Assembly: GCF_002979535.1 (NCBI RefSeq)
Contig: NZ_PCPB01000002.1
Coordinates: forward strand, 310,001 to 374,000
Reading direction: 5' to 3'
DNA from: Brevundimonas sp. MYb52
GTDB lineage: Bacteria; Pseudomonadota; Alphaproteobacteria; Caulobacterales; Caulobacteraceae
Length of the DNA: 64,000 bases
This document shows, in pieces, positions 8,486-41,527 of the stretch. The position numbers and the translations under genes are program-made. Every line of letters starts with the position of its first letter. The stretch's first letter is position 1. The notes under the pieces were generated by a model, which worked only from the letters and a program-made list of their open reading frames with translations, was not told where the DNA came from and made no database searches.

Positions 8486-9115
8486 TCAGCCCACGGCGGC
8501 GGCGCCCCACAGGATGCGCAGTCGCGCGCTGCGGCCGCAACCGATGCGGTAGGCTTCGTACTGGGCCGGGTGTCGGCGGGCGAAGTCCTGATGTTCGGCA
8601 GCGGCGGGCCAGAAGCGCATGGCCGGATAGACCGGCGTGGTGAAACTCGAGCCCTTGGCGCCCAGCGCGGCCTGCGCCGCCGTGCGGGACGCCTGCGCCG
8701 TCGCCGTCTGGGCCTCGGTGGCATAGACCGCCGTGACGTAGGACGGCCCCTGATCGCAGACCTGTCCGGTCTGGTCAGTCGGGTCGATGGTGCGCCAGTA
8801 GCGGTCGACCAGGGTGCGATAGCTGACGACGGCCGGATCAAACGTCACCTGCACCGCCTCGCGATAGCCGGTCCCGCCGCGCACCACCTGCTCATAGGTC
8901 GGGTTGGGCCGCATGCCGCCGACAAAGCCGGACACCGCCGAGCGCACGCCGGGCAGGCCGTCAAAGGCCTTTTCCTCGGTCCAGAAGCAGCCGCCGGCGA
9001 AGATGGCGGTCTGATAGCCGGGGGGAGGCGGCTCCAGCGGTGCGGCGGGGGCTTCGGCAGGCGAACAGGCGGCGGTCAGGGCGACCGCGATCAGGGGCAG
9101 AATGCGCAACGACAT
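8486..9115 (-). CDS. msrA: Peptide-methionine (S)-S-oxide reductase, lipoprotein form
   Basis: MsrA reduces methionine-S-sulfoxide in damaged proteins. The catalytic Cys is in GGCFWTEE (Cys43), with the family pattern GYxGG-like VSGFVGGMRPNPTYEQV, and a Cys near 193 could be the resolving residue. The N-terminus is a lipoprotein signal with the lipobox LTAAC (Cys17), so the enzyme should be membrane-anchored and face the periplasm, unlike the usual cytosolic MsrA. Length is 209 residues. It is divergent from sidA-dnaE, and the SOS-box region lies upstream of its start. Confidence 0.9.
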   Translation of the reverse strand: MSLRILPLIAVALTAACSPAEAPAAPLEPPPPGYQTAIFAGGCFWTEEKAFDGLPGVRSAVSGFVGGMRPNPTYEQVVRGGTGYREAVQVTFDPAVVSYRTLVDRYWRTIDPTDQTGQVCDQGPSYVTAVYATEAQTATAQASRTAAQAALGAKGSSFTTPVYPAMRFWPAAAEHQDFARRHPAQYEAYRIGCGRSARLRILWGAAAVG

Positions 9116-9201
9116 GGGACGCTCCCTCTATGTCTGCATCATAGGCTCAACGTGGGAATGCGGATGCCGATACGCCATGGGAACATTCGCGTTCCGGTCG
9201 C

Positions 9202-9230
9202 TTGCAATGAGAACAAAGCAAGAATATAGA
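9202..9230 (+). promoter_or_regulatory. Sigma70-like promoter for sidA
   Basis: TTGCAA at 9202-9207 and TATAGA at 9225-9230 are separated by 17 bases, close to the sigma70 consensus and unusually AT-rich for this genome. The -10 element overlaps the left end of the SOS box at 9229-9243, which would let LexA block it. The match is by eye only. Confidence 0.55.
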
Positions 9231-9243
9231 ACATTTCAGGAAC
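9229..9243 (+). promoter_or_regulatory. LexA-binding SOS box upstream of sidA
   Basis: GAAC-ATTTCAG-GAAC, a perfect match to the reverse complement of the alphaproteobacterial SOS box GTTC-N7-GTTC. It lies 21 bases before the sidA start codon and overlaps a good -10 element. An imperfect second box (GAAC-N7-GAAT) is at 9211-9225, between the -35 and -10. lexA itself is in this window with two further perfect boxes. Confidence 0.85.
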
Positions 9244-9264
9244 AACGGAGCTGGGGATAAGCTG

Positions 9265-9354
9265 ATGTCGCGTTGGGTGAGGGATATGCTGTCGCTTGCG
9301 TCGTGCGGCGGCTTCGTCTGGATGATCTGGCAGGCGTCTTTCCTGGTGACGTGA
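9265..9354 (+). CDS. sidA: SidA-like SOS-induced cell division inhibitor (29 aa)
   Basis: A 29-residue ORF, too short for routine calling, with a basic start (MSRWVRDML) and one hydrophobic segment (SLASCGGFVWMIWQASFLV), so it should be a single-pass inner-membrane peptide. A purine-rich GGAG/GGGG stretch precedes the ATG, and a perfect SOS box lies 21 bases upstream. SidA of Caulobacter crescentus is also 29 residues, SOS-induced and inner-membrane, and blocks division by acting on late divisome proteins such as FtsW and FtsN. Length, topology, SOS box and the position just before dnaE all fit. The sequence identity to SidA was not computed. Confidence 0.8.
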   Translation: MSRWVRDMLSLASCGGFVWMIWQASFLVT

Positions 9355-9412
9355 TCGCCGCATCGACTCCCTGCATGATCACAATCCCGCCGCGCCGCGG
9401 TTGGATATGAGA

Positions 9413-9431
9413 GGTCCCGGCGTCCGGGATC
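9413..9431 (+). other. Short hairpin just before the dnaE ribosome-binding site
   Basis: GGTCCCGG and CCGGGATC flank a three-base CGT loop, giving an eight-pair stem with one G-T wobble. It ends three bases before the CGGAG that precedes the dnaE GTG, so it could affect dnaE translation or end part of the sidA transcript. No T-run follows. The functional role is speculative. Confidence 0.3.
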
Positions 9432-9441
9432 AGCGGAGTTT

Positions 9442-12899
<3,458 letters not shown>

Positions 12900-12900
<1 letters not shown>

Positions 12901-35034: not shown

Positions 35035-37207
35035 TCAGGAAGGGTCCGTTGCGGAGGCCCTTATACGCCCGCGCGCGCCAAAGCGAAGCCTTGCCGTAAG
35101 GGTTATTGAGAGGCTGCGCGCCGAGGTCGCGGATCAGACGGACCGGTGGCGGTTGTGGGCGCCGGTCTTCTTCGGCGGGGGGGGCGCGGCCTATTTCGCT
35201 TTGAGGGCCGAACCGGCCGGGTGGCCCCTGATGGTCGCGGCGGTGCTGGCGGGCGCGGCCTGGCTGGGGGCGCGGCGGTTCGGGCTGGCGCGGCGCTGGA
35301 CCCTGATCCTGCTGATGCTGGCCTGTCTGTGCGGCGGGGCGGCGGTGGCCAAGCTGCGGACCGAGGCGGTCAGCGGGCCGATTGCGCCGTCCCTGGCCGA
35401 GCCAACCGTGGTCGAGGCCTGGGTCATGGATGTCGATAGTCCCGGCGAGCGGGGCGCGCGAATAGTCGTGGCGCCGGTGCGGATCAGGGGATTGGCGCCA
35501 GAGGCGACGCCGGTGCGGCTACGGGCTACGGTGCGGGGCGAGCCGCCGGCGCCGGGCGAGGCGGTGCGGCTGTTCGGCATCCTGAACCCGCCGCCGGCTC
35601 CGGCCAGTCCAGGGGCCTATGACTTTGGCCGCAACGCCTATTTCCAGGGCATGGGCGGGACGCTGTTTGCTCTGGGCCAGACGCGACCCACGGCCCTGCC
35701 TGAGCCGCCGTGGCGGGTGCGGATGGCGATGAAGGTCAATGCGGCGCGCTATGCCTTGGCGCAGCGGATCGTGGCGAGGCTGGGCGAGCGGACCGGCGGG
35801 ATCGCCGCCGCCATGACCACCGGGCATGAGGCCTGGATCGGGCGCGAGGATCTGGACGCCATGCGCGATTCCGGGCTGGCGCACATCCTGTCGATCTCGG
35901 GCCTGCACATGGCCATCGTTGGCGGCTTCGTCTTCTTCGGCGTGCGGTTGGGCGTGGCGGCCTGGCCGTGGCTGGCGCTCAGGGTGTCGGGCAAGAAGGT
36001 CGCGGCGGTCGCCGGCCTGATCGCGGTCGGGACCTATCTGGTGGTGTCGGGGTCGCCGCCGCCGGCCGAGCGGTCGGCGATCACGGCCTCCATCGCCTTT
36101 TTCGCCATCCTGCTGGATCGACAGGCGGTGACCATGCACGCCCTGGCGGTCGCGGCTTTTGCGGTGTTGTTGCTGCAGCCCGAGGCCATCGTCACGCCGG
36201 GGTTCCAGATGTCGTTTGCGGCGACGGCGACGCTGGTGGCGCTGGCCGAGGTCTGGCCGCGTCGGGTCAAGGAGATTTCGGCGCCCTGGCCCATCGTGGC
36301 GGCGCAGCGGCTGGGGAGCTGGCTGCTGATCGCCTGCACCGCCAGCCTGGTGGCGGGCATGGCGACGGGGCCGTTCGCCATGCAGCATTTCAACCGCACC
36401 GCCGTCTATGGCCTGATCGCCAATCTGGGCACGGCGCCGGTCGCGGATTTCATGCTGATGCCGGCCCTGGCGCTCGGGGCCGCGCTGGAGCCGCTGGGGT
36501 TGGGCGCGCCCTTCCTGTGGCTGGCGGGCAAGGGGGTCGATCTGATGCTGGCCATCGGTCACTGGACGGCGGGCCTGCCAGGCGCGGTGCAGACGGTGGC
36601 CAGCGCGCCGGCGGCGGCCCTGCCGATCGCTTTCCTCGGCATTCTGTTCATCTGCCTGTGGCGGGGGCGTTTGCGCTGGCTGGGCCTGCCGCTGGCGGCG
36701 GCGGTTCTGATCTGGCCGCGTCCGGCGGCGCCGGATCTGTGGATCGGCGATGGGGGGACCAATGCGGCCTGGCGGCAGGCCGAGGCGGCGGTCGTGGTGC
36801 GTCCGGGCGAGCGCCAGTTCGCGGCGGACCTGTGGTCCCGACGTCGAGGGCTGGAACTGACGCCAAGGCCGGAGGAAGGCTGGACCTGCAAGCGGTCCTT
36901 CTGCACGCCGGACGTGTCCGAGGCGGGGCCGGTGGCGCTGTGGTGGGGCAAGAAGGCGCCGTCAGTGGAGCAGTTGGAGGCGATGTGCCGTTCGGCGGCG
37001 GTCGTCAGCAGTCGGGCCGAACTGACGTCGCTGCCCGCGTCATGCACCGGGCGGCTGGTGCTGGATGGCGTGGACTATGCGCGCGGCGGCTCGGTCGAGC
37101 TGTGGCGCGCGGAAGCGGGCTGGAAGGCGGTGTGGGCGGCCGACGTGCGCGGGCGCAGGCCCTGGACCCGTCAGGCCGATCCCGACTTCAGTGATAGCGG
37201 CGGATAA
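34985..37207 (+). CDS. comEC: ComEC/Rec2 family membrane protein
   Basis: Putative DNA-uptake channel of the inner membrane. The N-terminal part has two to three helices and a soluble OB-like domain (about 130-230); the competence domain with [19 protein letters not shown] (near residue 300) and several helices follow. The C-terminal region (about 590-740) sits where other ComECs have a metallo-beta-lactamase nuclease domain, but no HxHxDH motif is visible. The start is unresolved: GTG codons at 34985 and 35006 lie inside the divergent gltX gene, and no good start follows until about 35153 (TTG). The 3' end overlaps lexA by 20 bases. Confidence 0.88.
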
Positions 37208-37880
37208 GGCCGACCAGCTTGCCCTGAACCGCGACCTGATCCGAACCGTAGATCTTGGTCTCGTAGTTGCGGTTGGCGGGCTCCAGGGCGATGGAGGCGC
37301 CCTTCTTGCGCAGGCGCTTCAGCGTGGCCTGCTCGCCCTCAACCAGGGCCACCACGATCTCGCCCGACGAGGCGTCGCCGGTCGATTTGATGATGACCAT
37401 GTCGCCGTTGAGGATGCCCGCCTCGATCATCGAGTCGCCCTCGATCTCGAGCAGATAGTGTTCGCCGGCGCCCAGCATGGCTTCCGGCACCGGATAGCGG
37501 GCGGTTTCATGCTCGATGGCGTCGATGGGGGTGCCGGCGGCGATCTTGCCCATCAGGGCCAGTTCGCGGGTGTCGTTGGCGGGCTCAGCCGCCTTGGGAC
37601 GACCGCCGCCCTCGATGACGCCGGGCTTGAAGCCCGCGTGGCCGCGCGGCGCGCCCGCCGTGGCCTGTTCCGGCAGCTTGGTCACTTCCAGGGCGCGGGC
37701 GCGGTGGGCCAGACGGCGGATGAAGCCGCGTTCCTCCAGCGCCGTGATCAGGCGGTGGATGCCCGACTTGGACGCCAGATCCAGCGCCTCCTTCATCTCG
37801 TCGAAGGAGGGCGAGACGCCCGTTTCCTGAATCCGTTCGTGAATGAACATCAGGAGTTCGTGCTGCTTCTTGGTGAGCAT
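37188..37880 (-). CDS. lexA: SOS response repressor LexA
   Basis: Transcriptional repressor of DNA-damage genes. The N-terminal winged helix is [20 protein letters not shown] and [18 protein letters not shown]. The autocleavage bond is Ala115-Gly116 (KIAAGTP), and the Ser-Lys dyad is Ser150 ([10 protein letters not shown]) and Lys188 (ATLKRL). The 230-residue length, with a long Ala/Gly/Pro linker, is typical for alphaproteobacteria. Two perfect SOS boxes lie within 60 bases upstream, so it is autoregulated. It converges on comEC with a 20-base overlap. Confidence 0.96.
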
Positions 37881-37896: not shown

Positions 37897-37911
37897 GAAC
37901 AAGGCGTGAAC
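37897..37911 (-). promoter_or_regulatory. SOS box 1 of the lexA promoter
   Basis: On the plus strand GAAC-AAGGCGT-GAAC, which is GTTC-N7-GTTC on the strand of lexA. It lies 17 bases upstream of the lexA start codon and is a perfect alphaproteobacterial LexA site. Confidence 0.85.
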
Positions 37912-37921
37912 CGTTGAGGAT

Positions 37922-37936
37922 GTTCTGTAAGTGTTC
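37922..37936 (+). promoter_or_regulatory. SOS box 2 of the lexA promoter, opposite orientation
   Basis: GTTC-TGTAAGT-GTTC on the plus strand, again a perfect match. It starts 11 bases beyond box 1, in the opposite orientation. The centres are 25 bases apart, so two LexA dimers could bind side by side. Confidence 0.85.
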
Positions 37937-41338: not shown

Positions 41339-41527
41339 TTGACCCGCTTAGAAGCTATCCGCGACGCCCAGGCCCTGCTGAACCCGCCGGCCATCGAACA
41401 ACCCAAGCCGCTGCGCCTGCTGGCGGCGGCGGCCTTCGCCGCAACGGCGGCGGTGCTGCTGGCGGGGACCATGGTCGTGGGCCCCGGCGTGTCGTTCGAC
41501 CAGGGTTCCACGGTTTCCAATCCTTAG
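41339..41527 (+). CDS. Small single-pass membrane protein inside the trp cluster
   Basis: A 62-residue ORF on the strand opposite to trp. Start is a TTG preceded by GGAAGAAAT. A soluble N-terminus (TRLEAIRDAQALLNPP) leads to one hydrophobic helix (about 27-47, LLAAAAFAATAAVLLAGTMV) and a short tail. Third positions are GC-rich as in real genes of this window. Its stop codon overlaps the trpE stop region by three to four bases, tail to tail. I do not recognise a family; it could still be a chance frame. Confidence 0.6.
   Translation: MTRLEAIRDAQALLNPPAIEQPKPLRLLAAAAFAATAAVLLAGTMVVGPGVSFDQGSTVSNP

Follow-up and report, generated by a model that had tools for sequence, protein, structure and literature searches.

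Organization of the sidA-dnaE region

The window analyzed here is a 64,000-nucleotide stretch of the Brevundimonas sp. MYb52 genome, and positions are those of the window unless a contig (C) of the same or another genome is named. The dnaE gene, which encodes the DNA polymerase III alpha subunit (NF004226, 1440.9 bits, over cut-off), lies at 9442-12900 on the forward strand with GTG as its listed start, and later starts are possible. Its divergent neighbour, an msrA-like gene at 8486-9115 on the reverse strand (TIGR00401, 138.4 bits, over cut-off), forms the boundary of the upstream promoter region. Between the two lies a 29-codon ORF with an ATG start (9265-9354, forward strand; MSRWVRDMLSLASCGGFVWMIWQASFLVT), which is almost certainly the Brevundimonas orthologue of sidA, judging from the profile matches and conservation described below. 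A first-pass annotation of this DNA had placed a 29-codon ORF 21 bases past a perfect GAAC-N7-GAAC box and next to dnaE; that box and the 21-base distance are present, and dnaE follows the ORF on the same strand.

The perfect repeat, the main putative LexA (SOS) box (GAACATTTCAGGAAC, 9229-9243, forward strand), is accompanied exactly 18 bp upstream by a second, degenerate box that matches at 7 of 8 positions (GAACAAAGCAAGAAT, 9211-9225, forward strand); the annotation had the main box right and overlooked the second. A -10-like TATAGA (9225-9230, forward strand) overlaps the main box, as had been claimed, and is preceded after 17 nt by a weak, putative -35-like TTGCAA (9202-9207, forward strand). 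The description of the former as a good sigma70-like -10 is generous, since by our own count both hexamers fit the sigma70-like sequences at only 4 of 6 positions, and a scan of the sidA upstream region for E. coli-type promoters gave none at threshold. Most aligned relatives have TTGACG-like hexamers near the -35 place, and in an alignment of 13 sequences (window included) the TAGAAC at the -10 place and the first and third GAAC half-sites are invariant, and the sequence 5' of the ATG, CTGGGGATAAG, is the majority sequence; the latter contains the probable ribosome-binding site GGGGA (9253-9257, forward strand, 7 nt 5' of the ATG). Across the Caulobacteraceae, 124 different promoters were compared, and in 94 of them a second box, matching at 7 or more of 8 positions, lies at the 18-bp spacing (66 of the 77 with a W22-type SidA, which are mainly from Brevundimonas, and 28 of the 47 with a C22-type). 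The only conserved promoter-like element seen between msrA and dnaE (9116-9441) is the one under the LexA boxes. We note also an imperfect palindrome, GGAAC-N6-GTTCC, at 9180-9195, about 15 bp before the upstream box.

Identity of the 29-codon ORF

The ORF matches one NCBIfam model only, NF033228 (div_inhib_SidA), at E 3.5e-4 over residues 1-28 of 29, with a score of 20.5 bits that is below the curated cut-off of 35; a Pfam search gave zero matches. The alignment with Caulobacter SidA that had been proposed as a check works by profile and fails pairwise. An HMM trained only on C22-type (Caulobacter/Phenylobacterium-like) SidA, 33 sequences with Brevundimonas-type rows excluded, scores the ORF at 26.0 bits and the best of 20,000 shuffled ORFs at 14.5 bits (18,381 of these gave a score), while BLASTP against one C22-type SidA, a stand-in for the Caulobacter crescentus protein, gave no alignment at E<=100, a test in which 29 residues have little power. 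At E<=10, 27 of 28 aligned family members match NF033228. Searched against whole genomes at E<=0.01, the model finds 160 of 199 Caulobacteraceae genomes, 118 of them over cut-off, and the window's own genome is not among these matches; among 14 named control genomes only Caulobacter vibrioides is positive and the other 13 are negative.

Like C. crescentus SidA (NF033228), the product of the ORF has 29 residues, one hydrophobic segment and a LexA box before its gene, it aligns without gaps at its N-terminus, it has the motif MxRxxR(D/E)xL(S/A)(L/F)xSxxxFVWM, and it stands beside dnaE as SidA genes do across the family. The single hydrophobic segment that had been claimed is there, moderately hydrophobic, with a best 19-residue Kyte-Doolittle mean of 1.35 (1.93 in a C22-type row). 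M1 and V18 are invariant in 28 aligned sequences, and R3, R6, L9, S13, F17 and W19 are conserved in at least 90% of them. The Brevundimonas sequences, that of the window included, differ from the other SidA types in having C14/W22 rather than V14/C22 (rows from genus g22 stand in for the C. crescentus sequence in this comparison), and the window protein has 10-15 identities of 29 with the C22-type rows.

Protein-level purifying selection on SidA is indicated by the coding DNAs, in which the third codon position is the most variable, and summed dN/dS is 0.30 for 68 distinct Brevundimonas-type and 0.18 for 44 C22-type sequences. These two measures carry the coding argument, because the control with other frames is weak: stop codons interrupt forward frame 3 in only 4 of the 68 Brevundimonas-type DNAs, and each reverse frame in 3 to 28 of them. 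The claim of a SidA orthologue is supported by a sole NCBIfam match to SidA, below the curated cut-off, and a position next to dnaE like that of other family members.

Conservation in the Caulobacteraceae

Comparison of dnaE upstream regions across the Caulobacteraceae, also suggested with the original claim, supports it. In 110 loci picked by dnaE alone (L001-L110, with some species present twice), a SidA-type ORF lies 5' of dnaE in 108; it is missing from L091 and from L096, where the upstream sequence is 223 bp long. When 30 loci picked by the SidA model, and so positive by construction (L111-L140), are included, every one of the 136 ORFs found has, no more than 120 nt away, a box that is perfect (106 ORFs) or has a single mismatch. 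In a separate comparison of 150 listed SidA rows with 150 listed dnaE rows, in which 27 SidA rows have no listed dnaE place, SidA is directly 5' of dnaE in 122 of the 123 rows that could be compared among the matches listed, with a gap of 19-274 nt from sidA to the dnaE match; dnaE was matched in 193 of 199 family genomes. The one exception among the 123 is an additional copy in a single genome.

A second SidA-like ORF, of 37 residues, was seen away from dnaE at L196 (G022:C3:315102-315185, reverse strand; MTRLIRETLAFAAAATFVWAVCVGALVVGDLFRSLPA). Its ATG overlaps the TGA that ends another frame, and a perfect box is absent from the 901 bases fetched there.

Genus g14 has a more divergent version in four of its six properly fetched dnaE upstream regions, M(V/I)SALHN(M/L)LSF..VTGFV or, in G080, MAVLHNLLSFASVTAFVVVMCQVASLV, and three of these four stand behind a perfect box. 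A simple scan of the dnaE upstream region found neither box nor ORF in the other two (G129 and G141), and likewise no ORF in genus g17 (G017 and G031).

LexA boxes in the genome

By itself the box is weak evidence, and it is conservation that proves the feature. The window contains four GAAC-N7-GAAC matches where 1.82 are expected, a number reached by 14 of 100 shuffles, and the whole genome has 99 matches versus 47 for the pattern read backwards. The direct repeat is nevertheless very likely the SOS box of Brevundimonas sp. MYb52, because lexA and recA both carry it. The lexA gene lies 28 kb away from sidA, also within the window (37197-37880, reverse strand; TIGR00498, 178.3 bits, over cut-off), and has two matches to the box pattern just upstream of it, at 37897-37911 (forward strand) and 37922-37936 (reverse strand). 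A recA match lies at C31:47630-48595 (reverse strand) with a box at C31:48738-48752, about 140 nt upstream.

The LexA box reported for C. crescentus, GTTCN7GTTC, has the same consensus as the window box (PMC12700426; PMC9578287). In that organism dnaE is designated CC1926 and lexA CC1902 (PMC1839093), from which these two genes appear to share one neighbourhood there too; sidA is given as CCNA_02004 (PMC10769358).

The fourth box match of the window (41494-41508, reverse strand) lies immediately 3' of an ORF that resembles trpE by visual inspection, and an identical 15-mer recurs once, at C23:152956. This match looks like a chance occurrence.

A similar arrangement outside the family

A profile built from SidA alone was run on 299 genomes of the order, where its one match outside the family covers residues 2-17 in G230 and lies away from the dnaE of that genome. 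In 289 genomes of the class it has four weak matches (E 0.002-0.004), three of them not at the listed dnaE and the fourth in G623. Leaving aside family members and such weak, partial matches, this profile finds no dnaE-linked micro-ORFs in whole genomes of the order or class.

In the first 20 genomes examined, from four other families of the order, a perfect box lies within 600 bp 5' of dnaE in 13, with L205 as a fourteenth, and all 13 of this first survey have a 25-31-residue hydrophobic ORF after the box. The extended survey covered 198 genomes, namely 100 of the order (all those searched) and 98 from other families of the class, out of 128 non-family genomes for which dnaE was listed; one class stretch (L362) is only 207 bases long. 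A perfect box is present 5' of dnaE in 57 of the 100 order and 14 of the 98 class genomes. The corresponding order and class counts for control patterns are 5 and 7 for the opposite orientation, 0 and 1 for the box read backwards, 1 and 3 for the complement of the latter, 1 and 1 for a spacing of 6, and 1 and 2 for a spacing of 8.

An ATG-started ORF of 24-40 residues with one hydrophobic segment, beginning 8-60 nt after the box, is present in 66 of the 71 regions with a perfect box (shuffling the sequence after the box predicts 0.83), and no ORF of the same kind occurs on the other strand in any of the 71. When boxes of at least 7/8 are allowed, box and ORF occur together in 24/24 genomes of family f4, 23/25 of f5, 12/25 of f3, 0/26 of f2 and 15/98 of the class, with 0.25 expected overall; two of the class matches (G488 and G461) have a box damaged in its GAAC core and may be due to chance. 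An [RKQHM][DE] pair within residues 3-16, a motif chosen by eye, is found in 56 of the 66 ORFs (5.2 expected). Because the ORF limits, including that on hydropathy, and the motif were set after earlier loci had been seen, both tests are partly post hoc. In four groups of these ORFs outside the family the third codon position carries most of the change and dN/dS is 0.01-0.21, values in which dN is lowered because the groups were picked by protein pattern.

Two of the 26 f2 genomes have the box alone. The locus may have been lost or moved in f2 and in part of f3, since the pair of box and micro-ORF was not found in the 26 f2 genomes and in 13 of the 25 f3 genomes.

Relationship of the other microproteins to SidA

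Ten representatives of these microproteins have no NCBIfam match at E<=1 and one weak Pfam match (E 0.18, under its cut-off). Compared singly with the SidA HMM, 10 of 58 ORFs score at p<=0.01 (two at the floor of the test), and most of the others are not significant. Profile-profile comparison by hhalign, with unchanged ORFs and a class set made up of all 13 ATG ORFs, joins SidA to f4 (95%, E 2.4e-8) and to the class set (91%, E 1e-6), and gives lower values for f3 (25%, E 7.7e-4) and f5 (0.65%, E 0.088). Among the other sets the values are 96% for f4-class, 94% for f5-class, 89% for f3-f4, 82% for f3-f5, 77% for f4-f5 and 47% for f3-class. Column permutations equal the observed score only for SidA-f3 (1/150) and SidA-f5 (16/150), and because these two direct comparisons are weak, f3 and f5 are tied to SidA only through the f4 and class intermediates. 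The intended null set was drawn from short ORFs of box-negative regions; hhalign matched it to SidA at 92.6%, and it failed as a control because at least 7 of its 11 ORFs look like family members, six of the seven with a one-mismatch box.

A mixed profile, searched against 385 genomes of the class with no demand for a box or dnaE, gave 25 matches down to E 0.0066 besides the window's own, and 22 of these lie within about 400 nt 5' of dnaE (7 of the 22 are exact training rows, and the others include near relatives). The remaining three are in G664 (no dnaE on the locus), in G782 (268 nt from a contig end) and in G020, where a second match lies on a contig other than that of its dnaE. Below these, the next five loci (E 0.0088-0.011) all lack dnaE. 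Matches come also from families without a row in the mixed profile: G793 (f174), G572 (f141), and G445, G578 and G756 (f14).

From the survey of box, ORF and dnaE, the profile-profile links and the mixed-profile search, SidA appears to belong, as one branch among others, to a family of SOS microproteins of the alphaproteobacteria. We consider it probable, at odds of about three to one, that this is an old and fast-evolving family of LexA-controlled, single-pass inner-membrane division inhibitors of about 30 residues encoded directly upstream of dnaE. It would have gone unnoticed because family models fail on members so short and so divergent; it is position (LexA box, micro-ORF, dnaE) that identifies them.

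Proposed function and alternatives

To our knowledge, the SOS division-stopping protein of the alphaproteobacteria is known mainly from Caulobacter.

C. crescentus SidA is described as a 29-residue inner-membrane protein that is induced via LexA cleavage, acts on FtsW/FtsI/FtsN and is active when overproduced from a plasmid; FtsW(A31K) suppresses SidA, and F145L and A246T suppress both SidA and DidA to varying degrees (PMC4211646). The FtsW of Brevundimonas sp. MYb52 has Ala, Phe and Ala at the places of A31, F145 and A246. This conservation is weak evidence, because among the five FtsW proteins compared, that of G176 carries Gly at position 31 and that genome nonetheless has a SidA match. The same mechanism is proposed here because the three FtsW residues are kept. 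In an undamaged cell LexA would sit on the tandem operator, covering the -35/-10 spacer and the -10, and keep the gene off. DNA damage would lead to RecA-driven self-cleavage of LexA, free the promoter and allow the 29-residue protein to be made, which would span the inner membrane a single time, its basic N-terminus (R3, R6) on the cytoplasmic side, and would hold FtsW, together with FtsI and FtsN, inactive, so that the septum would stay open until LexA is restored. We would put the probability of this reading as a whole, a SidA orthologue repressed by LexA at a tandem operator, induced by damage and arresting division by blocking FtsW, at about 0.93; for Brevundimonas, we infer the LexA binding, induction, topology, FtsW binding and division arrest from the comparisons above.

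Other small proteins of this kind offer partial parallels. DidA of C. crescentus is likewise a small single-TM division inhibitor of the FtsW/I/N complex, but it has 71 residues, is SOS-independent and is driven by DriD (PMC4211646). YneA of Bacillus, an SOS-induced division inhibitor that interacts with FtsW (PMC13396833), and SosA of Staphylococcus, also an SOS-induced division inhibitor (PMC6851548), are Gram-positive proteins and are likened to SidA by function, not by sequence. DinQ of E. coli is an SOS-regulated single-TM inner-membrane peptide, but a toxic one with antisense RNAs (PMC3567139).

The protein could be SidA by descent and have another target in Brevundimonas, such as FtsN or another membrane partner, or act as a membrane-active peptide like DinQ. 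The C14/W22 residues that set the Brevundimonas sequences apart from the V14/C22 types point that way, as does an FtsW that is identical to a g22 FtsW at only 240 of 390 positions; against this, the FtsW positions A31, F145 and A246 are kept, and R3, R6, L9, S13 and F17-W19 are common to the other SidA types. We regard a changed target as unlikely. That ORF and box are both accidents of a GC-rich genome might be suspected from the frequency of the pattern, given above for genome and window, but the retention of ORF, box and place in the dnaE-selected loci and a profile score above all 20,000 shuffles lead us to reject chance as having next to no probability.

A further alternative is that the ORF serves as a leader peptide or attenuator, adjusting dnaE expression during the SOS response, and is not an independent protein. 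Its place just 5' of dnaE in nearly all comparable rows, among the matches listed, would suit such a role. In 73 distinct W22-type sidA-dnaE gaps, 8 promoter-like patterns were sought and none is commoner than in shuffled sequence; dnaE may therefore be carried on the sidA transcript. A leader peptide would nevertheless hardly explain residues under selection (dN/dS 0.18-0.30) or one hydrophobic segment and a fixed motif kept over 29-31 residues, and the reported activity of C. crescentus sidA overproduced from a plasmid (PMC4211646) argues against it. The distance to the conserved FVHLR codons of dnaE (median 50 nt in 47 C22-type rows) varies from 41 to 346 nt, unlike a classical attenuator, and we hold this explanation to be very improbable. 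A bolder possibility is that, since a conserved promoter pattern between the two genes was not found, the LexA promoter may also feed dnaE, in which case a single damage-induced transcript would both increase the replicative polymerase and halt division.

Significance

The window gene extends SidA to Brevundimonas, where SidA falls under the curated cut-off. The literature covered, which is partial and no proof of novelty, does not report SidA relatives outside Caulobacter or the linkage to dnaE. The wider family, rather than the SidA of the window, is the part of real interest. With the rule of LexA box, micro-ORF and dnaE, a specific candidate for the checkpoint inhibitor can be pointed out in further families, and SidA-like microproteins outside Caulobacter are predicted to arrest division. 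The survey also raises the question of why a checkpoint gene has so long remained the neighbour of the replicative polymerase gene, and the divergent microproteins are a natural set in which to map the way a helix of 30 residues can stop FtsW.
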